A DNA stretch of 64,000 bases from Verrucomicrobiota bacterium (GTDB lineage Bacteria; Verrucomicrobiota; Lentisphaeria; Oligosphaerales; Oligosphaeraceae). Where the stretch lies: positions 1 to 64,000 of the forward strand of contig JAGVUR010000078.1 of NCBI GenBank assembly GCA_019136135.1, given 5' to 3'. The position numbers and the translations under genes are program-made. The notes beneath the pieces were generated by a model. The model was not told the DNA's origin and made no database searches. It worked only from the letters and a program-made list of their open reading frames with translations. Position 1 is the first letter of the stretch; the number at the start of each line of letters is the position of its first letter. Shown here in pieces: positions 8,001-64,000 of the stretch.

Positions 8001-8255
8001 TTGGATCGCCTGGATTTTCAACGGCCCATCAGACTCCCACGCCAATCGCAAGTCCTTGACGCTCAACGGTCCATGAACCGCATACACTACTCGTCCGCCA
8101 GGATGGATCCGTACGCCATCCGCAATGCTCTCGGCATGCCTGACTTCAACAGCCAAGCCAAAGCACAAATCTTCCAAGTTGCCATAGGCATGTTGACTTG
8201 ACAATATCGAGGGCGACAGCAATACTCCAGCCAAAACCCATGTTAAATATCGCAT
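5097..8255 (-). CDS. Large secreted GH-A-like glycosidase (GH42-type architecture)
   Basis: 1052 residues with a signal peptide (MRYLTWVLAGVLLSPSILSS). About 440 N-terminal residues appear beta-rich. A TIM-barrel-like region follows (GYDAFKLHLPWI, TIADAGLKISFRNHI, HIISINANYG, HLYGDEGCQNPP), then a segment like a class I glutamine-amidotransferase/trimerisation fold (LVDFMEKGGVFLGSLATDSL, GKLVVLTKWWSNPG), then a short beta domain. That order resembles GH42 beta-galactosidases and relatives, but I cannot place it in a named family. The Glu in GDEG is a candidate catalytic residue. It starts 9 bp after the end of the beta-helix gene at 8265, so the two are almost certainly co-transcribed, downstream of that gene. 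Confidence 0.55.
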   Translation of the reverse strand: MRYLTWVLAGVLLSPSILSSQHAYGNLEDLCFGLAVEVRHAESIADGVRIHPGGRVVYAVHGPLSVKDLRLAWESDGPLKIQAIQIGIRESIQLSETIVWDNAEQERKSIKRACGLTDFVTRFQYQRRLNHAHVTANNLIFLTVESLCPDIVEFRGLRLMGRRMNHEVSGFFDDLRVKKVVDGGDIALSWGESRHEVVLDRGYQVHDAGLDMASLSIGEQVGAFHVLHSLARGESASDDHVGTLLIEYEDGVFDAICAVKSWNIQIEDGGGTWWGPATTLWGQAVYLPKGELGDHWTAKYQMSYLNPRPNVPVKRIILSKKDDNYKVEGITLERPESTLVGLVEPDRATFEAGEKLGFTMYEYRAKANPGPPSVASVELVKPDLQVELGKLGFHREGHYSSARGEVTIPDDWRLCGPVRLKLSSGIASSELGLLYPRDWRPRPNYISMIGGGHDPRQDYVHLKRLGYDAFKLHLPWIVKANGDIDWNGWEDRFKTIADAGLKISFRNHITNQVFPHLEQCVRRVTYEKDKEPEIAKSYDPADETFRKRLVEYYVSSAKLGATRPDHIISINANYGLRQGVGTGRLTVGPATFQAFVKSLQQEFTLGEFNRATSLNLGSFSELQPDHVLNDRTRVLLPRLSRVNHQLLASLQREVVRGIRRVNPGIHLTFNAPFHVNEHTMLGLTTEEYLRLATEYGPGSIFHETADRYCLSFAKWMLAKRTFGHLYGDEGCQNPPTYEHNTFAYCWMTAFQCWDALYCQWWGGKPAHQNIARLKPDFQLVFNAEYIPDPICLAISLNAAFEQLPDLFGKPLHSQNWSHYSLANLLRGTNLNADRYMVEEFPEQDRNVKSKLLIDDSTRSISQKFGDRLVDFMEKGGVFLGSLATDSLNQYRFYGRFGIGIKGQEVEGSDLVRHGGAFPVVEKRVGKGKLVVLTKWWSNPGWMPGATEELRRDFMALLRRYGEFEPNVSCDAVPLSVIPYRAVNGDLVLYVVNPTVRALDTCLDIKASLIRHNGIVRDMWSGRELEVERRGNRVLVRTQIQPMGAATILFRSR

Positions 8256-8264
8256 GCTACCTAC

Positions 8265-10904
8265 CTATTCCTCAAACCACCCCCGTGCCTTGAAGCGAAC
8301 ATACACGGGTACGCCGGCTTTCAGCGACACCTTTTGGACCAGGCGCCACTCATGGTTCACGCAAGCCATCGATTTGCCCGAGAAGGGTTTGACACCTGGC
8401 ACTTCAGCCACGATTCCGTACGGCGGATTCACATTGCCGAGAGGCGGTCTCTCACGGTTGTCCCTCACTGCCCAGGCACCTGTTCCCTCAAGATCCAAAT
8501 CCTTCAACTCGCAGCCTGTCACCTCCATTGCGTCAACCAGCGTTTTGTCGCCGTAGGCGCCCATCAACTCAAACAGGACCTCGCAATCCTGCTTTGCAGC
8601 AAAGCCGAATTCGTAAGAATTCCAGGCTTCCAGATCAGCATTTCCAAAGGAAGCGACGATTCTCTTTCCTCGTGCCCAATTCGGGATTGAGCAATGTTTG
8701 AAATCGCCTGCGTACTCCGTCAATCCTTCCTGCGGCTTGCTGATCAAGGTAACATCGATCCGCACTGCGGCGCGTGCATACTCTAGCCGAAGTTTCTTCG
8801 GCGGCGTGATTCCCTCGCCGAACTTCACCGCAGGTGATATCCGCAACGGATCGGGATACAGTCCCATCTCCGCAAACCGATTTTGCGCTCCGACGACCTT
8901 ATCGCCCAAGGAGCCAGCCTTGAAACGCCAATCCAAACCCGCATAATCGACAAATCCGGGCTCCTCGTTGGTCGACTCGTTGCCCTCGCAGACCAACTGG
9001 AGCTTCTTGATCGTTTCCTCGCGGAAATCCCATTTTCCGCTTGTGACGGTCAGGTTTCCCTTGAACACGTTGTACAGGGGTTCGTGTGCAAACTGACCGT
9101 CCTCCAGTTCCAGGATCGCCAGCATCTTCGGATATTTCCGCGCCCATTCGCCAGAGCTATACAGCGCCTTGTTCTTGATCAGCTTTTGCATCAAACCGCT
9201 TTCAAAGCCCTTTTCGGACGTAGGTCTGGCAAACGTGTTTATTCCTCGGCTCCCGAACAAGACTCCCCTGCCGGCATTCATCAACACGTTTCCTTCCACT
9301 AGATTGTCCTGACCGCCGCCAAGGTGGATCGCGGACGTGCAGCGGCTCAGCAGATTTCCTCGCACAATCATGCCTGACGACCAATCGTCCAGATAGACTG
9401 CGTGGGTATTGGTCGCCCGTGGGCTCTTGCCGGTCCAATGGATGAAATTGTACTCGATGACGGTTCCACGCTGGGTGAAGTCTCGGGTACAGGAATAGAT
9501 GGCTCCCGCGTCGTCGTTATGCAGGCATGTATCGTGGATCACGTTAAAAGCGATTCGGTGGTCGTTTCCCGAAAACGAGATTCCCTGATGTTCGGAGTGG
9601 TGAATCAAGTTGTGGGTTGCCTGGTTTCCCACTCCGTTCAGCGCAATGCCCGGCTTGTAATTAGGGATGAATTTCCCGTACCAGCTGATATGGTTGTTGT
9701 CGGCTATGTTATTTGCCGGTTTCAGCGTTTCGAAGTTACCTCCTTGCAGGGCGATTCCTCCTTCTCCCAGGTCATAGAGGTCGCATCCACGCACCGAGCA
9801 ATCCTGGCTGCCCGTCAGTCCGATGCCCAGCGACATTGTGTGGCGAACGACGCAGGAGTTGAAATGCACGTCAACTGAACCAGAAAACGAAATGGCATCG
9901 CGTCGGGAATGCTCGAAGACCAGCCCTTCGAACACAACGTGCTTCAGGCCTCGCCCGACCAAAAGGTTCTCGCTCAAGGCGACCGTCACGGGAGTGCGAG
10001 CTACGTCATCAGACGGCAACAAGTAAACCTTGCGACGAACGCGATCAACAGCCCATTCACCGGGTTCATCCAGTTCGCTGATTGCATTGAACGCATAGAA
10101 ATCGGCATGCTTCTTGAAGCCTCCAAATACATTTTCCGCATTGACCTCGATGGATCCGCCCTCCGCGTCAATCCGGATCACATTTGTTCTGGAGTCTGCC
10201 CATTCGTAGTACCACAATCCATGGAGCCACAGGTCAGGTTCTTCTGCCCATTTCTCCAGGCGTTTGTCAGGAAATGCGAACCACCCCTGGAGATAATGCA
10301 ATCCATCATGATTTGTCGATGTCTCCTTGCCCAGGCATTCGCCAGTCTTGACAAATCCCGTGTTGGGCCAGCGGGATATCGGCAAGCGGGTCTCGCCCTG
10401 GAACAATCCAATCGGCCATTCGCGCTTGCTTCCCCCCATCAACCCGCCGTTCTTGAACCCGGGCAACTTCCCATCTCCAGGCATGTCAGCCTCCAGGACG
10501 CGACCTCGTACCCCAGAAGGCAATAGCGCCAAGACCTTGGCATCCTCAACAACGCGCCACGACGACAGGACAACGCCGCCGCTCAATCGGGCACCGCCAC
10601 GATTCGCACTGCGAAACACGACAGGCGATCCCGCAACCCCGCTGTCCTGTTCGCCCAACTCTATTGCGGATCCTATCGGATAAACGCCATCTCCAAACGT
10701 CACGACGGCACCACCATCAGGCAAACCACCGTGCTTGGCGCGATAGTCACGCAGGATTTCGACGGCACGGCGAAAACTACGGACAGGAGAACCCGCGCTC
10801 CCATCGCCATCGTCTCGACCATCTACGGAAACATGAATGGACAAGGGAGCGCCGACCAGCACTCCACAGCCAACCAATGCAAACAATGCCAACAGCCTGA
10901 TCAT
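8265..10904 (-). CDS. Secreted right-handed beta-helix protein, GH141-like
   Basis: 879 residues with a signal peptide (MIRLLALFALVGCGVLVGAP) and AGGAG 7 nt before the ATG. The opening of the mature protein (HVSVDGRDDGDGSAGSP, then SFRRAVEILRDYRA and GAVVTFGDGVYPI) is the pattern of parallel beta-helix carbohydrate-active enzymes. Repeating helix coils fill roughly residues 300-560 (for example HVVFEGLVFEHSRRDAISF, IHHSEHQGISFSGNDHRIAF, HAVYLDDWSSGMIVRGNL). The C-terminal 170 residues look like an added beta-sandwich, possibly a carbohydrate-binding module. GH141 enzymes act on fucose or xylan linkages in pectin and similar glycans; a lyase-like activity is an alternative. It is the first gene of a two-gene unit with the glycosidase at 5097. 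Confidence 0.65.
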   Translation of the reverse strand: MIRLLALFALVGCGVLVGAPLSIHVSVDGRDDGDGSAGSPVRSFRRAVEILRDYRAKHGGLPDGGAVVTFGDGVYPIGSAIELGEQDSGVAGSPVVFRSANRGGARLSGGVVLSSWRVVEDAKVLALLPSGVRGRVLEADMPGDGKLPGFKNGGLMGGSKREWPIGLFQGETRLPISRWPNTGFVKTGECLGKETSTNHDGLHYLQGWFAFPDKRLEKWAEEPDLWLHGLWYYEWADSRTNVIRIDAEGGSIEVNAENVFGGFKKHADFYAFNAISELDEPGEWAVDRVRRKVYLLPSDDVARTPVTVALSENLLVGRGLKHVVFEGLVFEHSRRDAISFSGSVDVHFNSCVVRHTMSLGIGLTGSQDCSVRGCDLYDLGEGGIALQGGNFETLKPANNIADNNHISWYGKFIPNYKPGIALNGVGNQATHNLIHHSEHQGISFSGNDHRIAFNVIHDTCLHNDDAGAIYSCTRDFTQRGTVIEYNFIHWTGKSPRATNTHAVYLDDWSSGMIVRGNLLSRCTSAIHLGGGQDNLVEGNVLMNAGRGVLFGSRGINTFARPTSEKGFESGLMQKLIKNKALYSSGEWARKYPKMLAILELEDGQFAHEPLYNVFKGNLTVTSGKWDFREETIKKLQLVCEGNESTNEEPGFVDYAGLDWRFKAGSLGDKVVGAQNRFAEMGLYPDPLRISPAVKFGEGITPPKKLRLEYARAAVRIDVTLISKPQEGLTEYAGDFKHCSIPNWARGKRIVASFGNADLEAWNSYEFGFAAKQDCEVLFELMGAYGDKTLVDAMEVTGCELKDLDLEGTGAWAVRDNRERPPLGNVNPPYGIVAEVPGVKPFSGKSMACVNHEWRLVQKVSLKAGVPVYVRFKARGWFEE

Positions 10905-49159: not shown

Positions 49160-50692
49160 ATGCCACTATACGTCCTGATCATCGTAGATGTCGCAGTTTT
49201 CTGGTTCTTCTTCGGAAACTACGTCCAGAAGCATTGCCGTACGCCAAACGGAAAACGTAAATTCAGATTGGCGGAAATCGAAAAATTCCTGCGCAACTTG
49301 CTGCTCAGGGACAAGGACATCCTCCCTGACAAGGAAATCGAGTCAATGAAAAGCGTCATCGAGGAAATCCGTACGACCAGAGCCGAAAACCAACCACAGG
49401 CTATCGCGGAATTGCTCGGGAAGCTTGACGGATCAACCTCACTAGGTCTTCCAAAACCCAAAAAACACGCCTGGGTCAGGGACCATCTGGAAATCCTGGT
49501 CGTCGCACTCGGACTTGCTTTCGGAATCAGATCGCTCTTCATTCAACCCTTTAAAATCCCAACGGGCAGCATGCAGCCTACGCTCTACGGAATCCACTTC
49601 ACGGAATCCGGCAAGGTGCCCTCAAACAAGCTTGCCATCTTCTTCAACTACCTCAACTTCTCAAGGCAGAACTACAACGTCGTTGCCAGGGCGCCGGGGC
49701 GATTCGACTGGACATCGATCAGACCCGGGAGAAACTACCTCCCGCTTTTCCCCTCGACGCTCTTCAATATCGGCACGGAAACCTATCGCGTCCCAGGAAC
49801 ACCCGCAGAAGTCCAGCAGATTATCTACGAATATTTCCAGAAAAAAGCGCGAAAAGGACCCCTTAACTTCAGACAATCCGATCCGCTCTTCGCCTCAAGC
49901 CAAGACTCCTTCCCAACCTATGTCAAAACCGCTGGAACACTCGATTGGAACTCGCTTAAACAACTCGATACCGACAACCCCAACCAGCCCGTAACGCAAC
50001 TAAAAATCGGTGACGACACCTACGAACTCCCAGGACTGCTGGAAGACGTCAAGCGGACTATCGTCAGAATATACATCAATCCGCTAACCTCCAGATACTT
50101 CGACCTCCAAGAAGGAGATGTCTTCATCAGGGGATTCCGTGAAACGGGAGACCACCTGTTCGTCAATCGACTCTCACTCTTCTTCAGCGAACCTAAACGA
50201 GGTGACGTGATGGTCTTCACGACGGACAATCTCGTCGATCCCGACGGAACTGGATTCGGAGGACGATTCTATATCAAACGATTGGTCGGACTCCCAGGCG
50301 ATACGCTCAAGATCAAGGACAGAATGCTATTCGTCAAGCCAAAAGGCGAAAGCGACTTCCGTTGCCTGGACGAAAAAGACGCAGCGGGATTCAAGAGGAT
50401 CTACAGCGAAACCGGAGACTTCCATGGATATTCACACATGGACGGAAACGCACCATACCTCAATAACAACAACGCTGAATTCACAATCCCAGACAACAAC
50501 TACTTCATGCTGGGCGACAACTCGGAAAACAGCAAGGACAGCAGATACTGGGGAACAGTCCCGAGAAAAAACATCATCGGAAAACCAGGCGTCGTCTGGT
50601 GGCCGCTATCAAGAAGATGGGGACTCGTTGACAGAATAGAGCCTGATCCTACAATCGGACCAACACCAGCAAACTATCCAATACGGAAATAA
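49160..50692 (+). CDS. lepB: Signal peptidase I with a large duplicated insertion
   Basis: 510 residues, against about 324 in Escherichia coli. An N-terminal membrane segment (about 3-20) and a cytoplasmic stretch lead to a second hydrophobic segment (110-128) and the catalytic Ser137 in IPTGSMQPTLYG. The general base Lys373 lies in RFYIKRLVGLPGD, and FMLGDNSENSKDSRYWG is the last family box. Ser and Lys are 236 residues apart instead of about 55. The extra sequence contains two copies of a unit of about 47 residues: 181-227 (RFDWTSI to IIYEYF) and 260-306 (TLDWNSL to IVRIYI). The enzyme removes signal peptides on the outer face of the inner membrane. Confidence 0.92.
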   Translation: MPLYVLIIVDVAVFWFFFGNYVQKHCRTPNGKRKFRLAEIEKFLRNLLLRDKDILPDKEIESMKSVIEEIRTTRAENQPQAIAELLGKLDGSTSLGLPKPKKHAWVRDHLEILVVALGLAFGIRSLFIQPFKIPTGSMQPTLYGIHFTESGKVPSNKLAIFFNYLNFSRQNYNVVARAPGRFDWTSIRPGRNYLPLFPSTLFNIGTETYRVPGTPAEVQQIIYEYFQKKARKGPLNFRQSDPLFASSQDSFPTYVKTAGTLDWNSLKQLDTDNPNQPVTQLKIGDDTYELPGLLEDVKRTIVRIYINPLTSRYFDLQEGDVFIRGFRETGDHLFVNRLSLFFSEPKRGDVMVFTTDNLVDPDGTGFGGRFYIKRLVGLPGDTLKIKDRMLFVKPKGESDFRCLDEKDAAGFKRIYSETGDFHGYSHMDGNAPYLNNNNAEFTIPDNNYFMLGDNSENSKDSRYWGTVPRKNIIGKPGVVWWPLSRRWGLVDRIEPDPTIGPTPANYPIRK

Positions 50693-50703
50693 CGAAACTC
50701 ACC

Positions 50704-52740
50704 ATGACCACAAGAGCAGTCATCCTTGGATTCCTAGGCGCCGCCTTCATCTGTGGAGTAAGCTACTTCAACGACTTCATCCTCCAGCAGACGTACCTGG
50801 TCGGCAACAACATGCCCGTCAGCGTCTATGGAGTCCTGATCATATTCTGCCTGGTCGTCAACCCCCTCCTTGGCAAACGCGCCTTCAAAGGCAAAGAACT
50901 CGCGCTAGTCGTCGCAATGACACTCGCAGCCTGCTGCATACCTGGTTCGGGACTGATGAGGACATTCACCACCTCACTGATATTGCCCCATCACTTCGTC
51001 AAGACAACTCCAGGATGGAAAGCAAACAATATCCTTGCTGAAATCCCGCCAAACATGCTCGCCGACGTCTCAAAGGACGAAGATACGGCGTTGATTGGAT
51101 TCGTCCAAGGACTCGGAGGACCAGACAAGCCGTTCACCTTGGCGGACGTCCCATGGAGTGCCTGGAAACAACCGCTCCTCCTCTGGATACCCATGCTGCT
51201 GACAGTCTGGATCGCCCTCATCGCCATTGCACCAATGCTGCATCGACAATGGGCGCACCACGAACACCTGCCATACCCAGTCGCAGAATTCACAAACGCA
51301 CTCCTCCCTGATCGAACGGGGAAACTGCCCGCAATCCTAAAAAACAGGCTTTTCTGGATCGCGACAATCTGTGTCTTCACCATCCATTTCAACAATTTCC
51401 TCTACACATGGTTCCCGGAAAGCCTGATCTACTTCAACAAACACATCAATCTCATTCCCCTCGCACGGCTTAGCACAACCTTCCAGCGAGGCGGAGGAGC
51501 AGGACTGCTCGCGCCAACACTCTACTTCTCGGTCATCGGACTCGCATTCTTCCTTGCCTCCGACGTGGTCCTCTCATGCGGCATCGGACCTTTCTTCTGG
51601 TGCTACGTATGCGGATGCTTCGCCACATACGGAATCTCGCTTAGATCCAATATCGATGGAGTATGGTACCTGGGTATCTCACCGCTCTCAATGCTCAATT
51701 TCGGCTCCTATCTCGGAATGGCAATACTCGTACTCTACCTGGGAAGACGATACTACCTAAGCACGCTCAAACAAGCGCTCTTCATCAAGTCGGGCGATCC
51801 CGTCGAAAAGCATGTCGTCATCGGAATGCGGATTTTCCTGCTTCTGATTCCCCTGCTTTTCATACAGCTAGTCAGGACCGGCTTGGAATGGCCCTTTGCG
51901 ATCATCTACATTGCTGGCTTGTTTATGTTTTTCATCATGATCAGCAGGGTGATGGCGGAAACCGGGATCTTCTACATTCAGCCATTCTTCATGCCTTCGG
52001 GCATTGTCTGGGCGCTTTTCGGCGCCAGCGCCATCGGAACCAGGCAACTGATGATACTCTTGATGCTTTGCCTGACATTTGTCATCGACCCACGGGAAAC
52101 CCTCCTCCCGTTCATATCGGGATCGCTGAAGGTAAACGACGACCAATCGCTCAAGCTCGGAAAAGCCACCACGGCCTGCGCTTTGGCTATGATCCTCGGA
52201 CTTGTCGTTGCAGTACCAACAACACTCTTCCTCCAATACAAGTATGGCGTGCCATGGGTTGACTCATGGTCGGCGCAAGCCGTTCCCAAAATGCCCTGCG
52301 ACAACGTCAATGTCGTCGCACAACGACTAATCCAGCAAGACCAACTGGAAAAGGCGGCCAACTACACCATCTGGGAAAGATTCATCAATGCCCGGCCTGA
52401 ACCCAAGGCCATGATTGCCGCTGCCGCAGGCATCGCCTTGGTCACCATATTTGCATTCGCTCGACTTCGCATCACATGGTGGCCTTTGCATCCTGTGCTT
52501 TTCCTTGTTTGGTCAACAGAGCCGCAGCGACGGATGGCAGGCGCTTTCCTCGTGGGATGGCTGTTCAAGACATTGGTCTCGAAGTATGGCGGAGCAAAAT
52601 TCTACCAAAAGCTCAAGCCAATGGCCTTCGGGCTAGTCGCCGGTGAAATCCTAGGTTCGATCATCCCCTGCTTGATCTGCGCAATCTACTACGCAATCAC
52701 CAAGGAGATCCCACCACGATTCATGGTGCTCCCAGGCTGA
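50704..52740 (+). CDS. Polytopic membrane protein, DUF6785/DUF6784-like
   Basis: 678 residues with about a dozen hydrophobic segments spread over the whole length (for example VILGFLGAAFICGVSYFNDF, LLLWIPMLLTVWIALIAIAP, LIPLLFIQLVRTGLEWPFAI, MIAAAAGIALVTIFAFARL). It resembles large uncharacterised membrane proteins common in Planctomycetes, Lentisphaerae and Verrucomicrobia that carry paired DUF6785/DUF6784 domains and look distantly like oligopeptide-transporter-type carriers. It starts 11 bp after lepB, so it is probably co-transcribed with it. The substrate is unknown and no catalytic motif was seen. Confidence 0.6.
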   Translation: MTTRAVILGFLGAAFICGVSYFNDFILQQTYLVGNNMPVSVYGVLIIFCLVVNPLLGKRAFKGKELALVVAMTLAACCIPGSGLMRTFTTSLILPHHFVKTTPGWKANNILAEIPPNMLADVSKDEDTALIGFVQGLGGPDKPFTLADVPWSAWKQPLLLWIPMLLTVWIALIAIAPMLHRQWAHHEHLPYPVAEFTNALLPDRTGKLPAILKNRLFWIATICVFTIHFNNFLYTWFPESLIYFNKHINLIPLARLSTTFQRGGGAGLLAPTLYFSVIGLAFFLASDVVLSCGIGPFFWCYVCGCFATYGISLRSNIDGVWYLGISPLSMLNFGSYLGMAILVLYLGRRYYLSTLKQALFIKSGDPVEKHVVIGMRIFLLLIPLLFIQLVRTGLEWPFAIIYIAGLFMFFIMISRVMAETGIFYIQPFFMPSGIVWALFGASAIGTRQLMILLMLCLTFVIDPRETLLPFISGSLKVNDDQSLKLGKATTACALAMILGLVVAVPTTLFLQYKYGVPWVDSWSAQAVPKMPCDNVNVVAQRLIQQDQLEKAANYTIWERFINARPEPKAMIAAAAGIALVTIFAFARLRITWWPLHPVLFLVWSTEPQRRMAGAFLVGWLFKTLVSKYGGAKFYQKLKPMAFGLVAGEILGSIIPCLICAIYYAITKEIPPRFMVLPG

Positions 52741-52775
52741 TCTTGTGGGAAACAAGGTTGTACTGGCTTGGAGTT

Positions 52776-53717
52776 CTATTCGTCGCTGGATTCTTGTACC
52801 AGGTAAATCGGCCTGCCTTTGACTTCCATGTAGATCTTCGAGATATAGAGCCCCAACACCCCAATCAGCAAGAATTGCAGGCCGCTAAAGAATGTCAGGC
52901 AAGCAAGGATTGTCGTGTATCCCTGGACCGCTTCCCCGAAGAACAACGTTTTCACCAGCGTCTTGATGCAAATAATCGCCGCAAAAAGACACGCCAAGAA
53001 GCCCAGCACAAAGGACAGGTACAGGGGAGACGTCGAAAATCCAATCATCCCTTCCAGCGCGTACTTGCACAAGCCTATAAACGACCATTTGCTCTCACCG
53101 GACAGCCGTTCCTTGTTCTCGTACGGCAACCACTTCACCTTGAATCCAACCCATCCAAACAATCCCTTCGAAAACCGATTGTACTCGCGCATCGAAAGAA
53201 GGGCATTGACGTATTTCCGGGTCATCAGACGAAAATCACGGGCGCCAGGCTCCAAATTCACACGGGTCAACCACCCCATCAAACCATAAAACATACGCGC
53301 AAAAAAACTGCGTATCACGGGTTCGCCGCGACGATCCACGCGCCGAGTCGCAACGCATTCCCATTCGCCGGACAAAATGTACGGAATCATCTCGAGGAGC
53401 ATTGACGGCGGATCCTGCATATCGGCGTCCATTACGGCAACCAAGTCGCCGCGAGCAGCTTCCATCCCGCATAGCAACGCAGACTCCTTGCCGAAATTCC
53501 TGGAAAAAGACTGGTAGTGGACCCGAGGGTCACCCGCGCGAAGCTCCTTCAAGACCGACAATGTCCCGTCGGTGGAACCGTCGTCAACAAACCTGAACTC
53601 GACTTCCAGCCCTTCAGGCAACGAAGGAAGTATCTGGCAAATGCTCGCGTATAACGCCCGAAGACAAGACTCTTCGTTATAGCACGGAACAACGAGTGAC
53701 AGCAGGCGGAATGACAT
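52776..53717 (-). CDS. Family 2 glycosyltransferase, polyprenyl-phosphate type
   Basis: 313 residues. The GT-A domain starts LLSLVVPCYNEESCL and has FVDDGSTDGT, SFSRNFGKESALLCGMEAA and the DxD-containing AVMDADMQDPP. Two C-terminal membrane segments (about 232-258 and 268-292) end with GLYISKIYMEVKGRP. This is the layout of the GtrB/ArnC/DPM1-like enzymes that load a sugar onto a polyprenyl phosphate on the cytoplasmic side. The sugar is unknown. It ends with TAG and is convergent with the DUF6785-like gene, 35 bp away. Confidence 0.9.
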   Translation of the reverse strand: MSFRLLSLVVPCYNEESCLRALYASICQILPSLPEGLEVEFRFVDDGSTDGTLSVLKELRAGDPRVHYQSFSRNFGKESALLCGMEAARGDLVAVMDADMQDPPSMLLEMIPYILSGEWECVATRRVDRRGEPVIRSFFARMFYGLMGWLTRVNLEPGARDFRLMTRKYVNALLSMREYNRFSKGLFGWVGFKVKWLPYENKERLSGESKWSFIGLCKYALEGMIGFSTSPLYLSFVLGFLACLFAAIICIKTLVKTLFFGEAVQGYTTILACLTFFSGLQFLLIGVLGLYISKIYMEVKGRPIYLVQESSDE

Positions 53718-53810
53718 GGATTTGACTCCTGGAGATCGACACCAAAAAACCTCATCGCCTAAACATAATGCGACCTTCGGGCTTTTGCAATATCCGATCT
53801 CGCAAGCAAT

Positions 53811-56800
53811 CTACTTCTTCAGCGACGCCTTGACAGCCTTCAATTCGCGCAAGCCACCACGGTGCAGCACCATGTACACGATGGGGATGAAAATCAACGT
53901 CACCAATGTAGATGAACTCAAGCCACCAATGACAGCACGAGCCAAGGGAGCCATCGATTCACCACCTTCGCCAAGGGCAAGAGCCATCGGAACAAGACCC
54001 AGGATAGTCGTCAATGATGTCATCAAAATCGGGCGCAAACGACGCCGGGCCGACTCAAAAATCGCATCGTAGATCCCGACTCCAACGGCGCGCAGCTCAT
54101 TGATCTGGTCAACTAGGATAATCGCGTTGTTCACAACGATTCCAGCCAGCATGATACAGCCGATCGCCGATTGCATATTCAACGTCGTATTCGTGATAAA
54201 CAGGATCACCAACACACCGATCGCCGCAAGCGGAACCGAGAACATGACTACCAGGGGATCCAGCAGCGACTCGTATTGGCAAGCCATGACCATGTACACC
54301 AAGACAACCGCCAAGGCGAACATCGCCAGCAATTCCTGGAAGGTCTCCACCTGGTCATCCCAGTTGCCGGAAGGAGTAATCGAGAAGCCGGCGGGACGCA
54401 AGATGCTGTCCAGTTTCGGCTGCGCCTCCTTGATGACGGTTCCGATATCGACGCCAGCAATGTTGCAATACAGGGTCACGACACGCTCCTGCTCCTTTCG
54501 GTCGATGCGTACCGCGCCTTTATGGGACTTCGTGCTCGTAACATTGCGGAGGTTGATTGCCTCGCCGAACTCGTTCGTCACCAGCAAATCGTGAATCTCG
54601 TGCAACTGACGACGGTCGGAATCCTTCATCTTGACCAGAATCCTGTACTCGTCACCGCCTTCGCGGTAGTTTGTCGACGACACGCCAGCCACAGAAGTCT
54701 CTAGGAAGTTCGCAATCGTATTTACATCCAGCCCCAGAGTCGAAGCCTTGACCCGGTCGATTTGGAACAGTTCCTCAGGCGTCCCGGTTTCCCGCGAGAT
54801 TCGCACGTCGGTGACCCCGTTGACGGTTTCCATCAGCTCGGCCGCTTGCCTGGCAAGTTCGTCCCCCGTCTCCATGTCATAACCTCGAATGTCAATCTCC
54901 AGACGGGAATCGGCGCCGCCACCCATCATTCGGCTGAAGAAACTCACCGAAGCAAAGCACCGAACCTTTGCACCAGGATAACGGTTCCGCAACTTGTTCT
55001 GCAAATCCAAAGCAACCTGCTCGCTGCTTCGAGTCCGGAGATGAGGCTTGACCAAATAAACGGACATGCTAGCAGAATGAGCGGCAGAACCACGCCATAC
55101 GGAACCGCCAATGTTCGATTGCATCTTCAGGTACTCGGGAACATTCTCAATGATGTAGCGCTCGACATCCTCGGCAATCTCAGACGTGATTCCAACTCGC
55201 GTACCGACATCTAGCTCGATACGGACATTCACCTGGCTCTCGTCCGTCTCAGGCATGATCTCGGTGCCAATAAATTGCCACAAGCCGAAACAGCCAACAA
55301 CGGCCAATGCCACCACTATGGTTACCGAAACCCAATGGAACATGCAAAACCGAAGGAATATCTGGTATGCCATCGTCAACTCATCAATGAAATTCCCGAT
55401 CCAGCGGGACAGGGGATGTTCCTTCCCCCCTGCAAGTCCTTTGCCCGCGAAACGCTTCTCGGCCAAGGCACCAATCCGCGCGGTCATCATCGGAACAACC
55501 GTCACGGCAGTCACGTAACTGCAAAGCAACGAAAAGCAAATCACGACCGCCAGCTCGGAAAACATAATCCCGACCATCCCTTCAACGAAAAACATCGGCA
55601 GGAAAATCACAAGAGTCGTCAGTGTAGAAGCAAGAATCGGAGTTATGACCTCCATCGTCCCCTTCTCCGATGCCGTCACGACATCCAACTTTTCCTCATC
55701 GCGCAAACGACTAATGTTCTCCAACACCACAATCGAGTTGTCAACCAACATGCCGACACCAAGCGCCAAGCCACCCAAAGTCATGATGTTCAACGTATAG
55801 CCAGTAAAGTAAATCAGCGCGAACGTCGCAAAAATCGAAAAAGGAATCGATGTGGCAATCACAAGCGTCGATGTCCAATTCCTCAGGAAAAACAAAATCA
55901 CAAGAACGGCCAGCAAACCGCCTTGCCACGCCGAAGACCCAACGCTGTCAATCGAATTCTTGATGAAGTCAGCGCTCGAGTGCATGATCTGCATCTGAAC
56001 CTGGGGGAACTCCTCGTTAATTCGCTTCAACTCCTTCTCAACGCCAGCAACAACCGATACCGTGTTTCGATCCGATTGCTTGAATACCAGCATGCGAATG
56101 CCGTTGCGCCCGTTGATGTGGACAGCTGTCGTCTCCTTCTCCCATGCATCAACGACCTCGGCAATGTCCTTGATCCGAATCGTCGCACCGTCGCGCACCG
56201 CAACGATCGTCTCGCGGATCTCGTCCAGGCTCTTGTACTGGCCAGGAGTACGCAACAAGACCTCGTAGTTGCCAGAATCAATCGTTCCAGCAGGCAAAGT
56301 CAAATTCTGACGGTTCAAGACATCCAAGATCGCCTTGGTTGACAGGCGCATCGCCTTGATCTTCTCGGGATACAAGTTCACATGGATCTCACGCTTGCGA
56401 CCACCTAGGATATTCAGAGACCCAACCCCGTCAACACGCTCCAAGCGAGGCTCGATCTGATCCTCGATGAACTGACGCAACATGACAGGATCCAAGTCGG
56501 CGGCACAACCCAAAACCGCAACCGGCGCCGACGCCGCGTCGAACTTCCGCAAGGTCGGACGATCGACGTCTTCCGGCAACGCATTGATGATGCGGTCAAT
56601 CCTGTCCCGCACATCGTTGGCCGCCGCATCGATGTCAATCCCCCACTCGAACGAAACACGCACAATAGAGCGACCTTCAGACGAACTGGAACGCAATTCC
56701 TTCACGCCGGGAACCGCGCCGACGCCTTCCTCAATCGGGCGAGTGACCAGCTCCTCGACTTCCTCGGGACTGGCATCCCTATACTCCGCAATGACCGTCA

Positions 56801-56933
56801 CCGCAGGAAAGGTCACGTCAGGCATCATATCCACAGGCAATTTCACCAAGGCAACTGCCCCCAGGATAATCACGATCAGCGATACCATCGTCACAAAGAT
56901 TGGCCGCTTAATGGAAAAACTCACTATTGACAT
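53811..56933 (-). CDS. RND efflux transporter, HAE1 (AcrB-like) family
   Basis: 1040 residues, the normal length. The N-terminal SFSIKRPIFVTMVSLIVIIL, the periplasmic PDVTFPAVTVIAEYRDASPE and the TM4 segment GGLALGVGMLVDNSIVVLEN with its proton-relay Asp are those of the hydrophobe/amphiphile efflux group. The second half repeats the plan (LVVMFSVPLAAIGVLVILFI, IGCIMLAGIVVNNAIILVDQ). It is an inner-membrane, proton-driven exporter of small molecules. It lies 60 bp downstream of the extended end of its membrane fusion protein gene; no outer-membrane factor is seen in the window. Confidence 0.93.
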   Translation of the reverse strand: MSIVSFSIKRPIFVTMVSLIVIILGAVALVKLPVDMMPDVTFPAVTVIAEYRDASPEEVEELVTRPIEEGVGAVPGVKELRSSSSEGRSIVRVSFEWGIDIDAAANDVRDRIDRIINALPEDVDRPTLRKFDAASAPVAVLGCAADLDPVMLRQFIEDQIEPRLERVDGVGSLNILGGRKREIHVNLYPEKIKAMRLSTKAILDVLNRQNLTLPAGTIDSGNYEVLLRTPGQYKSLDEIRETIVAVRDGATIRIKDIAEVVDAWEKETTAVHINGRNGIRMLVFKQSDRNTVSVVAGVEKELKRINEEFPQVQMQIMHSSADFIKNSIDSVGSSAWQGGLLAVLVILFFLRNWTSTLVIATSIPFSIFATFALIYFTGYTLNIMTLGGLALGVGMLVDNSIVVLENISRLRDEEKLDVVTASEKGTMEVITPILASTLTTLVIFLPMFFVEGMVGIMFSELAVVICFSLLCSYVTAVTVVPMMTARIGALAEKRFAGKGLAGGKEHPLSRWIGNFIDELTMAYQIFLRFCMFHWVSVTIVVALAVVGCFGLWQFIGTEIMPETDESQVNVRIELDVGTRVGITSEIAEDVERYIIENVPEYLKMQSNIGGSVWRGSAAHSASMSVYLVKPHLRTRSSEQVALDLQNKLRNRYPGAKVRCFASVSFFSRMMGGGADSRLEIDIRGYDMETGDELARQAAELMETVNGVTDVRISRETGTPEELFQIDRVKASTLGLDVNTIANFLETSVAGVSSTNYREGGDEYRILVKMKDSDRRQLHEIHDLLVTNEFGEAINLRNVTSTKSHKGAVRIDRKEQERVVTLYCNIAGVDIGTVIKEAQPKLDSILRPAGFSITPSGNWDDQVETFQELLAMFALAVVLVYMVMACQYESLLDPLVVMFSVPLAAIGVLVILFITNTTLNMQSAIGCIMLAGIVVNNAIILVDQINELRAVGVGIYDAIFESARRRLRPILMTSLTTILGLVPMALALGEGGESMAPLARAVIGGLSSSTLVTLIFIPIVYMVLHRGGLRELKAVKASLKK

Positions 56934-56993
56934 ATCGTCAACCTCAATTCGGTTTCACTCGATCAAACAATTCCCCGCCAAATATTGACGCCT

Positions 56994-57113
56994 CTACCTG
57001 CGAACGGGCAGGCGTATCGACGAACCCTGACGCAACAGGTGATTCCCCATCGTCACGATGCGACCACTGAAAAAACTCTCCTGCTCAGGCTTCGCTGGAC
57101 GAACCTCGACAAT
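56994..57113 (-). other. In-frame continuation of the fusion protein beyond the TAG
   Basis: Directly after the TAG at 57114-57116, the same frame stays open for 39 codons to a second TAG at 56994-56996. It reads IVEVRPAKPEQESFFSGRIV and then TMGNHLLRQGSSIRLPVRR. Together with the preceding ETGIRYG this restores the normal family ending (short pattern: G, polar residue, VEV, then IVTxGxxxLxxGxxIRL). The simplest reading is a nonsense mutation or base error at one codon. Confidence 0.75.
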
Positions 57114-58370
57114 CTAGCCATATCTAATACCTGTCTCGATTGGCACAAACTCAACCGTCATTTCCGGCTCGTCGCCAACAGCAAAAAACATCCCCATGAT
57201 GTCGTCGCGACGCACGATCGCCTCAGACGGAACCAAGTAGCAATCCTTGTGACGTTCAAACTCAATCTCAATCCTGGTAAACATACCCGGCTTCAAATAA
57301 CCAGATGGATTGTCGATCTCAATCTCAACCCGCCCCTGCCGGGCCACCTCGCTGATAACTGGAGCAATGCGCACGATCTTCCCAGAAAAATACGGCTCCT
57401 TCGAGCCAGGAGCACCCTGAGGATACGCATCGACAAATACCCTCGCCGCCTGACCCAACTTCAAACGAGCATAGTCCTTCTCAACCGTCGAGACAATCGC
57501 ACGCATCTTCGAAATGTCAACCACGCAGATAATCGGAGCATTGACGGACAACATCGCACCAGGATCAACAAAACGCTGAGCGACCAAACGCTTGTCTGAA
57601 CCGCCTTCCCATGCCGCCGTAATCCGCGTGTAGCCCAAACGCGCCTTCGCCGCCTCCAATGCAGCCTTCTGCTTCACAACCTGCGACTCGGCTATGGCGA
57701 CCTGGGTCTCGGCAATCGCCAGCTTCGTCTTCGCAATCGCAACACCCGTCGTCGCAATCTCGACTTTCGAACGAGCAATGTCAACCTCGCTCAGCTGGAC
57801 TTCATAGGTCGCCTTCGCCGAATCCAACTCGGCTTGGGTATTCAAGTCCTCCTTGCGCAATTGCGTATGCCGTTCCAGTTCGCGCTTCGCCAACACTTGC
57901 TGGGCTTCAGCCGACTTCACGCCGGATTCCGCGGCTTTCACTTCCGTCTCGGCACTCAAGATCCCTGCCTTTGCGTTCATCACGTTAGCCTCGGCGGCCT
58001 TCACCTCCGCCTCGCAGACAACCAAGGCAGCCGACTGTTCGTTGACCGCCTGCTGCTGTTCATCATCATCCAACACCGCAACAAGGTCGTTCAAGCTTAC
58101 GACGTCGCCAATGTTGTAGTTCAGGGTCTTCAAACGACCAGCCGTCTTCGGTGAAATGTTGAACAAGCTGTCCGCTTCCAGTGAACCCGTGAAATTCCCG
58201 ATGTCGGCAAGATCGCCACGCTTGACCTCAGTCAACAAGACCGTTACCGCTGCCGCAGAACTCGGCTTCTTATCCTCTACAGGACGGGTCTTCTCAACCA
58301 AACGAAATACAATCAAACCACCCAACCCCAACAAAAGCAATATCCCGATCAATGCAAATATCTTTTTCAT
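57114..58370 (-). CDS. RND membrane fusion protein, ending at a premature-looking TAG
   Basis: 418 residues. An N-terminal membrane anchor (MKKIFALIGILLLLGLGGLI), a lipoyl half (KTLNYNIGDVVSLNDLVAVL) and a long Ala/Glu-rich coiled-coil hairpin (about 105-260) lead back to the second lipoyl half (LGYTRITAAWEGG). Then comes the beta-barrel part (PYFSGKIVRIAPVISE). The chain stops at VEFVPIETGIRYG, in the middle of the membrane-proximal domain. The following bases, in the same frame, read like the missing end (see the next entry). It is the adaptor for the RND pump at 53811. AGGGA lies about 9 nt before the ATG. Confidence 0.9.
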   Translation of the reverse strand: MKKIFALIGILLLLGLGGLIVFRLVEKTRPVEDKKPSSAAAVTVLLTEVKRGDLADIGNFTGSLEADSLFNISPKTAGRLKTLNYNIGDVVSLNDLVAVLDDDEQQQAVNEQSAALVVCEAEVKAAEANVMNAKAGILSAETEVKAAESGVKSAEAQQVLAKRELERHTQLRKEDLNTQAELDSAKATYEVQLSEVDIARSKVEIATTGVAIAKTKLAIAETQVAIAESQVVKQKAALEAAKARLGYTRITAAWEGGSDKRLVAQRFVDPGAMLSVNAPIICVVDISKMRAIVSTVEKDYARLKLGQAARVFVDAYPQGAPGSKEPYFSGKIVRIAPVISEVARQGRVEIEIDNPSGYLKPGMFTRIEIEFERHKDCYLVPSEAIVRRDDIMGMFFAVGDEPEMTVEFVPIETGIRYG

Positions 58371-58426
58371 AACTGAAAATCCCTATGGTGAACATGAAGT
58401 AAAACAACCAGAAAAAACAAAAACAT

Positions 58427-58478
58427 ATAATATCTAAAACAATTGTTTAAATTCAAGCCAAAAGCCAAACAATTGTTT
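58427..58478 (-). promoter_or_regulatory. Promoter with twin AAACAATTGTTT operators for the efflux unit
   Basis: On the minus strand, TTGAAT (58451-58456) and TATTAT (58427-58432) are 18 bp apart. The perfect 12-bp palindrome AAACAATTGTTT occurs at 58437-58448, inside that spacer, and again at 58467-58478, just upstream of the -35. The centres are 30 bp apart, about three helical turns. This is the arrangement expected for a dimeric repressor of the TetR or MarR kind. No regulator gene is nearby. Confidence 0.6.
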
Positions 58479-58577
58479 TATTATTTTATGAATTCCATGT
58501 CTTGACGACTTTTCGTCCCATTGCAGCATAAAATCACGCTACCTTCAAGGTCTCCTCCAAGTCAGCCAAAGGCGCAC

Positions 58578-58619
58578 AAAAAAGCCCCCGCAACAAAGCA
58601 TATGCTCTATTGCGGGGGC
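58578..58619 (-). terminator. Rho-independent terminator of the dnaK-groES-groEL unit
   Basis: On the minus strand, the arms GCCCCCGCAA (58584-58593) and TTGCGGGGGC (58610-58619) pair perfectly over 10 bp. They are followed by six T (A at 58578-58583). It lies 48 bp after the groEL stop. Confidence 0.93.
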
Positions 58620-58666
58620 CAAGGCTCAGATAAGAGTCAAACTATGGTTTCAATACCCTTGTTGAC

Positions 58667-60304
58667 TTACATCATGCCGCCCATGCCGTCCATGCCACCT
58701 GCGGGCATTGCGGGTTCTTTCTTCTCTTCGGGAAGATCGCAGATCATGCATTCGGTGGTCAGCAGCAAGCCAGCCACTGAGGAAGAGTTCTGCAAGGCAC
58801 AGCGCTCGACCTTCGTCGGGTCGATGATACCGGCTTCCAGCATGTCGACATAGGCGTCCTTAACGGCATCGTAGCCCATGTTGCCTTTCATTTCCTTGAC
58901 CTTCATCACAACGATGGAACCTTCAACACCGGCGTTCAAGGCAATCTGCTTGAGGGGTTCTTCGACGGCGCGCAGCACAATGCTGGCACCAACGGCTTCT
59001 TCGCCTTCCAGCTTCAGATTCGCCAATGCCTTCTCAGCAGCGCGGATGATGGAAACGCCACCACCGGGAACAATCCCTTCTTCAACGGCGGCGCGGGTCG
59101 CATGCAAGGCATCCTCGACACGAGCCTTCTTTTCCTTCATCTCCGATTCCGTTGCAGCGCCAACGTGGATGACAGCAACGCCGCCAGCCAACTTCGCAAG
59201 ACGCTCCTGCAACTTCTCACGGTCGTAATCGGAAGTCGTCTCTTCGATCTGACGACGGATCTGGTTGACGCGACCGGCAATCTTCGAGGAATCGCCGCCA
59301 CCTTCAACGATCGTCGTGTTGTCCTTGTCAATCGTGATGCGCTTGGCGGAACCCAGATGCTCCAGCTTCACGTTCTCCAACTTGATGCCCAAGTCTTCGG
59401 TAATGCACAAGCCGTTCGTCAAGATCGCAATGTCTTCCAACATCGCCTTGCGACGATCGCCAAAGCCAGGAGCCTTGACCGCACAGACATTCAACGTGCC
59501 GCGCAACTTGTTCACAACCAACGTGGTCAATGCTTCACCGTCTACATCCTCGGCGATGATCAGCAAGGGCTTGCCCTGCTTCGCAACCATCTGCAACATC
59601 GGAAGCATGTCCTGAAGCGAGGACAACTTCTTCTCGTGAATCAGGATCAATGCGTCATCCAAAACGCATTCCATCTCTTCAGCGTTCGTCACGAAGTACG
59701 GTGAGAGATACCCCTTGTCAAACTGCATGCCTTCGACAACGTCCAGGGTCGTGTCAATCGTCTTCGCCTCTTCAACGGTGATCGTGCCGTCTTTGCCGAC
59801 CTTGTCCATCGCGTCGGCAATGATGTCGCCAATCACATGGTCCGAGTTCGCAGAAATCGTCGCAACCTGGGCAATCTGCGAGCGGCTGTCAACTTCAACG
59901 CTCATCTTCGCAAGTTCCTCGACGATTGCGGCAACGGCCTTGTCAATGCCGCGCTTCAGCGACATCGGATTCGCACCTGCGGTCACGTTCTTCAAGCCTT
60001 CGCGGAACATCGCTTCGGCGAGAAGCGTCGCGGTGGTGGTGCCGTCACCGGCATTGTCGCTGGTCTTGGAAGCGACTTCCTTGACCATCTGGGCGCCCAT
60101 GTTCTCAAACGGATTCGGCAGTTCGACTTCCTTCGCAACCGTCACACCGTCCTTCGTAACCGTCGGCGAACCGAACTTCTTATCAATAATCACATTGCGG
60201 CCCTTGGGTCCCAATGTGGTCTTCACTGCCTTCGACAAGGCGGAAACACCAGCCAACAATGCCTGACGTCCCTTCGTATCATACTGAATCTGCTTAGCAG
60301 CCAT
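58667..60304 (-). CDS. groEL: Chaperonin GroEL
   Basis: 545 residues, standard length, with AGGAG before the ATG. Nucleotide-binding motifs are TLGPKGRNV (about 30), [13 protein letters not shown] (about 87) and [11 protein letters not shown] (about 415). The C-terminal tail ends [10 protein letters not shown], the flexible Gly-Met tail inside the folding cavity. It forms the tetradecameric folding chamber with GroES. It is the last gene of dnaK-groES-groEL. Confidence 0.98.
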
Positions 60305-60328
60305 TTCTAAATCTCCTGTGTTTTTCTA

Positions 60329-60619
60329 TTATTTTTCAACAATTGCCAAAATGTCCGATGAATTCAAGATCTTGTATTCCTTGTCGTCGATCTTGATTTC
60401 AGTACCGCCGTACTTGGAGGTCAGGATCGTGTCGCCAACCTTCACATCCATCGGAATCAGCTTGCCGTTGTCGTCCTTTTTGCCGGGGCCAACTGCCACG
60501 ACCTTTGCTTCCTGGGGCTTCTCCTTTGCTGAGTCAGGAATGAAGATTCCACCCTTGACGGTTTCTTTCGCCTCAATCGCCTCGACCAATACGCGATCAC
60601 CTAATGGTTTGATTTTCAT
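60329..60619 (-). CDS. groES: Co-chaperonin GroES
   Basis: 96 residues from the ATG at 60619, which has AAGGA about 7 nt upstream; longer in-frame starts lack one. [20 protein letters not shown] and the mobile loop [17 protein letters not shown] are typical, as is the end [14 protein letters not shown]. It caps the GroEL ring. It lies 24 bp before groEL and 69 bp after dnaK. Confidence 0.97.
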
Positions 60620-60688
60620 TGTTTTTCCTTTTGTTTCTTTGTTTGCTATATGCGACATCTCACAACCGCGTGAAATACCTTAACTCAC

Positions 60689-62623
60689 TTACTTGTTGTC
60701 AGTCGTGTCTGTGAAATCGGCGTCGATCACATCGTCGTCATGCTTTGCTTTTCCGCCACCATCGAATCCAGGGGGAGGTGCCTGTCCACCCGCCGCGCCG
60801 CCGGCTTGCTGTTGCTGTTGGGCCTGGGCATTCTTATAGATTTCCTGACCCATCGCCTGCATGTTGGTTTCCATTTCCTTCATGACCTTGTTCATGCGCT
60901 CCGTGTCGTTTGCCTCAATCGCGGACTTCAGCTTCGCAATATCATCCTGGATCGGCCCCGTGATGTTGTCAGGAAGCTTGTCCTTGTGTTCCTCCAACTG
61001 CTTCTCCAGCTGGAAGACCATCGATTCGGCGCGATTCTTCGTATCGACTGCATCCTTGCGCTTCTTGTCGTCTTCAGCGTGCGCCTGGGCGTCATTGATC
61101 ATGCTCTTGATCTCGTCTTCGGACAAACCCGAATTCGCCGTGATGGTGATCTTCTGCTCCTTGCCGGTACCCAGATCCTTGGCGGAGACATTCAAGATGC
61201 CGTTGGCGTCAATGTCAAACGTCACTTCGATCTGGGGTACTCCGCGTGGCGCAGGAGGAATCGAATCCAGATGGAACTTGCCAATGGTCTTGTTGTCGCC
61301 GGCCATCGGACGCTCGCCCTGCAAGACATGAATCTCAACCGAAGGCTGATTGTCGGAAGCCGTGGAGAAGATTTCGCTCTTCTTGCTGGGAATCGTCGTG
61401 TTGCGCTCGATCAACTTGGTGAAGACGCCGCCGAGGGTCTCGATGCCCAAGGACAACGGGGTCACATCCAGCAGCAATACGTCGCTCAGGTCGCCCTTCA
61501 GGACGCCACCTTGGATCGCCGCGCCAACCGCAACGACTTCGTCAGGATTGACACCCTTGTTCGGAGCCTTGCCGAAAATCTCCTCGGCAACCTTCTGGGT
61601 CAATGGCATGCGGGTCATGCCGCCAACCAGGATCACTTCGTCAATTTCGCTTTGGGACAGCGAAGCGTCGCGGAGGCAGTTGCGGCACGGGGCAACCGAA
61701 CGCTGGACCAAGTCGCCAGTCAATTGCTCAAGCATCGCACGGCTCAACGTCTTCGTCAAGTGCTTCGGACCGGTCTGGTCAGCCGTGATGAACGGAAGGT
61801 TGAACTCGGTGCTCGTCGATGTCGACAGCTCGCACTTCGCCTTTTCAGCGGCTTCCTTCAAACGCTGCAACGCCATCTGATCCTGGCGAAGGTCAATCCC
61901 GTTCTCCTTCTTGAAATCCTCGACCAGCCAGACGATGATAGCCTCGTCAAAGTCGTCGCCGCCAAGGTGGGTGTCGCCATTTGTCGCCTTGACTTCGAAC
62001 ACGCCTTCGCCCAATTCAAGGATCGAAATGTCAAACGTGCCGCCGCCCAAGTCGTAAACAGCGATCTTTTCGTTCTTCTTCTTGTCCATGCCGTAGGCCA
62101 AGGACGCCGCCGTCGGCTCGTTGATGATACGCTTGACATCCAAGCCAGCAATGCGCCCGGCGTCCTTCGTCGCCTGACGCTGACTGTCATTGAAATAAGC
62201 GGGAACCGTGATCACGGCCTCGGTTACCTTCTCGCCAAGATAAGCCTCGGCGTCAGCCTTGAGCTTCTGCAGGATCATCGCGGAAATTTCCGGCGGGGAA
62301 TAAAGCTTGTCGCCAATCTTCACGTGGGCGTCGCCATTCTTCGCCTCGACAATCTCGTAGGGAACCAAGCCGGTCTCATCGCGGCATTCGCTGTATTTGC
62401 GCCCCATCAGGCGCTTGATCGAAAACACGGTCTGGGTCGGATTCGTCACTGCTTGACGCTTCGCCAATGTGCCGACCAAGCGCTCGCCGGTCTTCGTAAA
62501 CGCAACCACGGACGGCGTGGTACGGGAACCCTCGGCATTTGGAATGACCACAGGCTCACCATTCTCCATAACCGCCATACAACTGTTCGTTGTACCTAAG
62601 TCTATACCTAATACTTTGCTCAT
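60689..62623 (-). CDS. dnaK: Chaperone DnaK (Hsp70)
   Basis: 644 residues. ATPase motifs are [19 protein letters not shown] (5-23), [18 protein letters not shown] (about 190-210) and [11 protein letters not shown] (about 330). The substrate domain carries [20 protein letters not shown], and the tail ends [12 protein letters not shown], the usual acidic EEVD-like end of bacterial Hsp70. AAGGAG lies 8 nt before the ATG. It is the first gene of a dnaK-groES-groEL unit; grpE and dnaJ are not in the window. The long opposite-strand open frame over this gene is a shadow. Confidence 0.98.
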
Positions 62624-62679
62624 TCTTAACTCCTTTTCTTGATATTGTTAATGATTAATAAAATGCAAAATTGTGACAT

Positions 62680-62708
62680 ATGATATAAACAAGCATTTTA
62701 CATGCCAA
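62680..62708 (-). promoter_or_regulatory. Candidate vegetative promoter of dnaK
   Basis: On the minus strand, TTGGCA (62703-62708) and TATCAT (62680-62685) are separated by 17 bp, giving a leader of about 50 nt. No CIRCE element (TTAGCACTC-N9-GAGTGCTAA) was found, and no clear heat-shock sigma promoter. Confidence 0.5.
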
Positions 62709-62797
62709 AAAGTTAAACCAGAAGAATTTCTTGTATTTAGCCACGAAAATCCCGTACAATACTGTGCGCAACACTGTGGCACACCTTGAGATTTTAG

Positions 62798-62887
62798 TGT
62801 CACACCGTGACAACGTGAGACACTTTGTCACAGTAGAACAACTGGATTTTCTTGAAAACACACGTTGCTAAAACTCCTTTGCAACGT
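62798..62887. promoter_or_regulatory. Inverted repeats upstream of dnaK
   Basis: TGTCAC and GTGACA face each other around 3 bp at 62798-62812, with further TGTCA/CTGTG words nearby (for example 62762, 62774 and 62826). A second inverted repeat, ACGTTGC and GCAACGT with a 12-bp loop, is at 62862-62887. They lie 90-210 bp upstream of the dnaK promoter candidate and may be regulator sites. Function is not shown. Confidence 0.3.
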
Positions 62888-62923
62888 AAATTAAGTATTT
62901 AAGGAATTTCGACAACCTTATGA

Positions 62924-63196
62924 TTGTAGTGCCTTTACAAGGCACTGTACTTGGGTGGGTTCGCCATCCCCAGGCTAAAGCCTGGGGTTAAGCTTCGTTA
63001 AGCGCTTACAGCGCAATGCATTATGAAAACCCTTCGGATTCGTTCGAACTATCGTCCGTGTCCCGCCCGCATGGATTGCGAACGGGCAGTCCGTGCCAAA
63101 GACTTTGCGCCGTAGGCGCCCGACCATGCTTAACCCCGGGCTTCAGCCCGGGGACAGGATGCCCCCATGCCGGGGCGCCTTGTAAAGGCGCTACAG
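62924..63196. mobile_element. MITE-like element of about 270 bp with terminal inverted repeats
   Basis: The left end at 62924-62945 (TTGTAGTGCCTTTACAAGGC) and the right end at 63174-63196, read on the opposite strand (CTGTAGCGCCTTTACAAGGC), differ at only two of these 20 positions. Inside, a second inverted pair carries strong hairpins: CCCCAGGCTAAAGCCTGGGG near 62968-62988, and CCCCGGGCTTCAGCCCGGGG near 63133-63153, each next to TTAAGC facing inward. The element has no transposase gene; the 62-codon frames inside it are fortuitous. No target-site duplication could be identified. It lies between the dnaK promoter region and the lipoprotein gene. Confidence 0.75.
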
Positions 63197-63334
63197 AAGA
63201 CTGACGCACTTCAATTCACCAACATGGCTAACGGAATAAAGTTTATAACCACTTTATAATCAACCAATTAAGAATAAAATAAGGTTTCAGCTACTTTTTT
63301 TAGGATTAATCAATAGTACAGAATCGGAGCAACT

Positions 63335-64000
63335 ATGAGACATTCATGCCTTGTCACGGCAACAGCCCTACTCCTCGCCGCACTTCTCACCTCTTGCGCA
63401 ACCACGACGACAAAAAAAGCCGAAGAAGGCAAGCGCGACCCGCACATCGACCTGTGCTACAGGGCACCAGGTCCCATCACGATTGACGGCGTCATGGAAG
63501 ACGCATGGAAGAAAGCGCCCCTCATCACCCACTTCACAGTCCCGCCAAAAGGACAAAGACCATACATGAAAACAGAGGCGAGGATCCTTTGGGACGACGA
63601 AGCGCTCTACGTCTTCATGAAAGCCTATGACAAGGACATTACCGCATATCGTACCGAACGAGATTCCGATACATGCAACGATGACGTGCTCGAATTGTTC
63701 CTCGTACCAGACGACCCTGCAACCGCTGTCTCTTACCTCAACTTCGAAATCAACGCTTTGGGGACTGTCCACGACGCATACGTCTACAACAGAAACCTTA
63801 TCGCAGGCAGGCGCTGGCAATTCTGGAACGCCGCCAAACTGGAGCATGCAGTCAAAATCCACGGGACGCTCAATAACTTCAGGGACGAAGACGAAGCCTG
63901 GTGCCTAGAACTCAAACTCCCGTTCTCAGACATGCCATGGATGGAAAACAGACCGCTGCCAATCAACGGAGAACAGTGGGCTTTCCACCTCGCCAGATAC
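63335..64000 (+). CDS. Lipoprotein with CBM9-like domain (runs off right edge)
   Basis: 222 codons are visible, with CGGAG 5 nt before the ATG. The lipoprotein signal ends LLAALLTSC, with Cys21 as the lipidation site. A Thr/Lys-rich linker then leads to a carbohydrate-binding family 9-like domain (ITIDGVMEDAWKKAPLITHF, ARILWDDEALYVFMKAYDKD, DDVLELFLVPDD, WCLELKLPFSDM). It resembles the C-terminal domains of the glycosidases at 23483 and 29838. It would sit on a membrane facing the periplasm or outside and help to bind glycans; a catalytic domain beyond the edge is possible. Confidence 0.85.
   Translation, partial: MRHSCLVTATALLLAALLTSCATTTTKKAEEGKRDPHIDLCYRAPGPITIDGVMEDAWKKAPLITHFTVPPKGQRPYMKTEARILWDDEALYVFMKAYDKDITAYRTERDSDTCNDDVLELFLVPDDPATAVSYLNFEINALGTVHDAYVYNRNLIAGRRWQFWNAAKLEHAVKIHGTLNNFRDEDEAWCLELKLPFSDMPWMENRPLPINGEQWAFHLARY

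Follow-up and report, generated by a model that had tools for sequence, protein, structure and literature searches.

We found that a single in-frame TAG codon splits an RND efflux pump gene, that of the periplasmic adaptor (membrane fusion protein); past the TAG, the same frame continues for 39 codons that align with the conserved C-terminus of the adaptor family, the last tenth of the protein. The best reading of this locus, to which we assign a probability of roughly 70%, is a recent nonsense mutation in the adaptor gene. The locus lies in the window, as we call the whole 64,000-nucleotide stretch of DNA analyzed, which belongs to contig C140 of the draft genome of a Lentisphaeria bacterium (4.74 Mb, 217 contigs, 88% complete). 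Our search of the literature found no report on this adaptor locus. Positions of the features are given in Table 1.

Table 1. Features of the adaptor-RND transporter locus, in window positions
Feature	Position	Strand	Basis or remark
Truncated periplasmic adaptor (membrane fusion protein, HlyD_D23/HlyD_3), 418 aa plus TAG	57114..58370	-	ORF, Pfam, profile search
Premature in-frame TAG of the adaptor gene	57114..57116	-	CAG in UBA1407, GAC in three other genomes of the genus
Conserved 39-codon tail, untranslated unless the TAG is read through; predicted last strands of the membrane-proximal domain	56997..57113	-	
Presumed original adaptor stop, TAG	56994..56996	-	TAG in UBA1407 too
Intact RND transporter (ACR_tran, 1040 aa), directly downstream of the adaptor	53811..56933	-	GAGG precedes the ATG

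Identity of the interrupted gene and of the sequence behind the stop

The 418-residue open reading frame ends in VEFVPIETGIRYG-TAG, its last residues being ETGIRYG, and the frame past the TAG reads IVEVRPAKPEQESFFSGRIVTMGNHLLRQGSSIRLPVRR up to the presumed original stop, just as a first-pass annotation of this DNA had described a membrane fusion protein split by one codon. Since 39 open codons are expected by chance in about 17% of cases at 52% GC, the length of this tail is unremarkable by itself. What goes beyond chance is that the tail aligns with the C-terminus of every one of the 17 relatives in A1, an alignment of 18 adaptors (17 homologues and the adaptor studied) drawn from the genus, family, order, and class. 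The tail, including a G-x-H-x-L motif, is present in all 18 of these adaptors, and four of the 16 invariant columns of A1 (E422, G442, H444, and L446) fall after the stop. With its counterpart in UBA1407 (Lentisphaeria bacterium), the nearest relative, the tail agrees at 34 of 39 residues. A search of the organism's own genome with the A1 profile crosses the premature codon and reports "1 TAG" inside the match, and the same profile matches the AcrA, MexA, BesA, and MexJ structures into the tail region. The Pfam scan was blind to the tail, as the HlyD_D23 and HlyD_3 matches both finish upstream of it, and a phmmer search with the C-terminal part alone did not reach it. The alignment, the agreement with UBA1407, and the A1 profile search together bear out the earlier proposal that these 39 codons are the conserved end of the family.

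At the position of the TAG, the frame is open in four of four other genomes of the genus, so that a premature stop stands opposite a sense codon (CAG or GAC) in the orthologues, the pattern of a pseudogene. The first-pass annotation had called for this codon to be compared in close relatives, and it had named two observations that would speak against its reading: relatives whose protein ends at the same position and dissimilarity of the 39 codons to membrane fusion protein C-termini in a profile search. We looked for both; no adaptor ending at the TAG position was found among the four genus genomes and the 17 A1 homologues, and the tail does match the C-termini of the family.

The truncated form alone matches HlyD/CusB-type domains above curated cut-offs (HlyD_D23, 53.4 bits, cut-off of 30; HlyD_3, 28.7 bits, cut-off of 22.2), and it has an AcrB-type transporter as its neighbor (ACR_tran, 845.9 bits, beginning 180 nt past the TAG). 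With known RND adaptors (AcrA/MexA, MexC-like, and ZneB; Pfam HlyD_D23 and HlyD_3), it shares profile matches to AcrA, MexA, ZneB, and MacA, a predicted fold of the read-through protein that matches the AcrA and MacA structures, and a gene position directly upstream of an RND transporter, but it differs from them in a frame that stops 39 residues short of the usual family C-terminus. The C-terminal membrane-proximal domain is not complete in the translated product, its remainder being encoded behind the TAG. The protein is an adaptor by descent and, as translated, an incomplete one.

A shallow AlphaFold model of the read-through adaptor (mean pLDDT of 77 and pTM of 0.46) places strands at residues 420-425, 437-439, and 451-453. 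The nearest solved structures to this model were AcrA and MacA, at low global TM-scores (0.3-0.5) that may be what is expected for flexible multidomain proteins. The model supports membership in the adaptor family, but not fine detail.

Selection on the tail and the age of the lesion

Compared with UBA1407, both the adaptor before the TAG (dS of 0.43 and dN/dS of 0.065) and the RND gene (dN/dS of 0.07) are under purifying selection. The tail (dS of 0.45 and dN/dS of 0.20) contains no additional stop or indel, and it appears to be without extra decay, since its dN/dS lies inside the range for pairs of intact genes (0.05, 0.185, and 0.22); such equality is expected of a very recent lesion or of an error. 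We also asked whether the tail evolves faster, as a decaying sequence would. Relative to UBA1407, nonsynonymous changes are enriched in the tail (P of ~0.02), but they are likewise enriched in intact pairs (P of 0.04 and 0.002), so the enrichment is a property of the C-terminus and we rejected it as evidence of decay. With decay seen neither in the tail nor elsewhere in the operon, the lesion is either a recent event when set against the divergence from UBA1407 or not real. The locus resembles a pseudogene made by a single nonsense codon in having one premature stop, a frame otherwise intact, and a sense codon in all relatives, but it differs in lacking further decay, which would make it very recent or an artifact.

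The second likeliest explanation, which we regard as unlikely but deserving of serious weight, is that the TAG is absent from the organism and represents a one-base consensus error or the base of a minority strain in the draft assembly. Such an error would leave the tail just as conserved, which counts against a nonsense mutation, and the surroundings of the codon look functional and undecayed. The assembly is fragmented and incomplete, and related drafts contain assembly faults; the UBA1407 adaptor gene, for instance, appears split at a scaffold join (NN) whose flank of ~24 bases is duplicated (L010:2228-2229), and we rejected this apparent split as a biological frameshift. Against an error, the 22 genes common with the UBA1407 contig, which give 9,467 aligned codons, show no other convincing in-frame stop, so such errors are locally rare, and genuine transitions at CAG codons are common. 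Many tblastn hits had apparent internal stops that were mostly due to antisense or spurious ORFs, and after filtering only the TAG at 57116 was convincing. From this one draft genome, we infer that the TAG is present in living cells. Among the causes offered by the first-pass annotation, a nonsense mutation and a consensus error thus both survive, whereas the data below contradict a general rule of readthrough or recoding.

Along contig C140, from the window interval 49986-64000 on to contig position 85140, synonymous divergence from UBA1407 ranges from ~0.43 (the adaptor) down to 0.005 (contig positions 73004-75547). This variation suggests that, over part of the contig, the two lineages have exchanged genes recently. 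Positions 82123-85064 of the contig contain several close-set, similar short genes with prepilin-like starts (MKKVL.FTLIELLVV) and cross-matching UBA1407 copies.

Predicted consequences for the pump

Under the preferred reading of a recent nonsense mutation, the gene would have acquired one nonsense codon, by a C-to-T transition if its ancestor had the UBA1407 codon CAG, and ribosomes would halt after 418 residues without adding the last 39. The residues lost would provide the closing strands of the membrane-proximal domain, and it is this part that has been linked to the docking of RND adaptors on the transporter. Most of this domain is built from the C-terminal part of the adaptor, and it is implicated in recognizing the transporter; one substitution within it, G363C in AcrA, is enough to impair efflux strongly (PMC4446572, review). 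With this domain left incomplete, the truncated adaptor probably works poorly and the pump is probably weakened or nonfunctional. The RND gene, which has its own ribosome-binding-like site, would still be translatable. Loss of function is not certain, since some adaptors, such as EmrA, an adaptor for MFS pumps, are without a membrane-proximal domain (PMC4446572); RND pumps are as a rule accompanied by adaptors with such domains.

The genome encodes three other full-length RND transporters and several further adaptors, so the cell would still have pumps of this type. Genes for outer-membrane factors are also numerous. This redundancy is in line with an improbable alternative in which the stop is real and tolerated, either because 418 residues suffice or because the pump is redundant and the change neutral or selected. 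Loss of a quarter of the invariant family columns (4 of 16) and the lack of any relative that ends at this position both argue against tolerance.

In annotation, this pump gene deserves a flag as possibly broken and should be left out of any tally of working pumps; there is little import beyond this. The case is otherwise ordinary, and it illustrates cleanly how relatives can be used to tell a nonsense mutation from recoding.

Termination at TAG in this genome

TAG ends nine of 56 long nonoverlapping ORFs on the contig (by a mechanical list that includes the adaptor gene). Three genes that the first-pass annotation had listed as ending in TAG (1551, 5050, and 52776) do so, and TAG also terminates the RND gene (53811) and others; in two of these, the RND gene and the one at 52776, UBA1407 has it at the same place. 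Release factor 1 (prfA) is intact in the organism's own genome. In this genome, 88% complete, ARAGORN, run on every one of the 51 tRNA-match loci, found no CUA anticodon, and a tRNA-like pattern search for a CUA anticodon returned only known tRNAs with other anticodons or matches unreported by the tRNA model. PylS gave a single weak match below the cut-off. Searches of the genome with RND, prfA, adaptor, OEP, ABC, sulfatase, and PylS models revealed exactly one internal stop, the adaptor TAG. On these grounds we rejected recoding, as the first-pass annotation had anticipated.

Readthrough of the TAG at a low or regulated level, yielding a mix of 418- and 458-residue adaptors, is very improbable. 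Conservation of the tail behind the stop is the one point in its favor. The TAG is shared by no relative, unlike a programmed readthrough stop with a conserved extension, and RNA structure around or after it does not exceed shuffled controls (z of -0.6 to 0.8). Neither a suppressor tRNA nor a PylS match over the cut-off was found, although absence from an 88% complete genome is no proof; release factor 1 is present, and no second example appeared in the families searched. We likewise consider it highly doubtful that the TAG is a real, maintained switch at which partial readthrough gives a minority of full-length adaptor and termination efficiency sets pump assembly; if readthrough were shown, the locus would provide a rare instance of an efflux pump under translational control. 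Reassignment of TAG to an amino acid in this genome, for which we found no supporting point, can practically be dismissed, given the intact release factor 1, a search that found no suppressor tRNA, other genes ending in TAG with the same codon at the same place in UBA1407, and, in the families searched, one TAG-interrupted gene rather than many.

One other stretch on the minus strand of the window (5097-10904) resembles a gene split by TAG. Four codons past the terminal TAG of a large secreted-protein gene (8265-10904), the next secreted-protein gene (5097-8255) begins in the same frame. We rejected this pair as a second TAG-split gene; the latter has its own ATG and a signal-peptide-like start, and the two look like ordinary genes.
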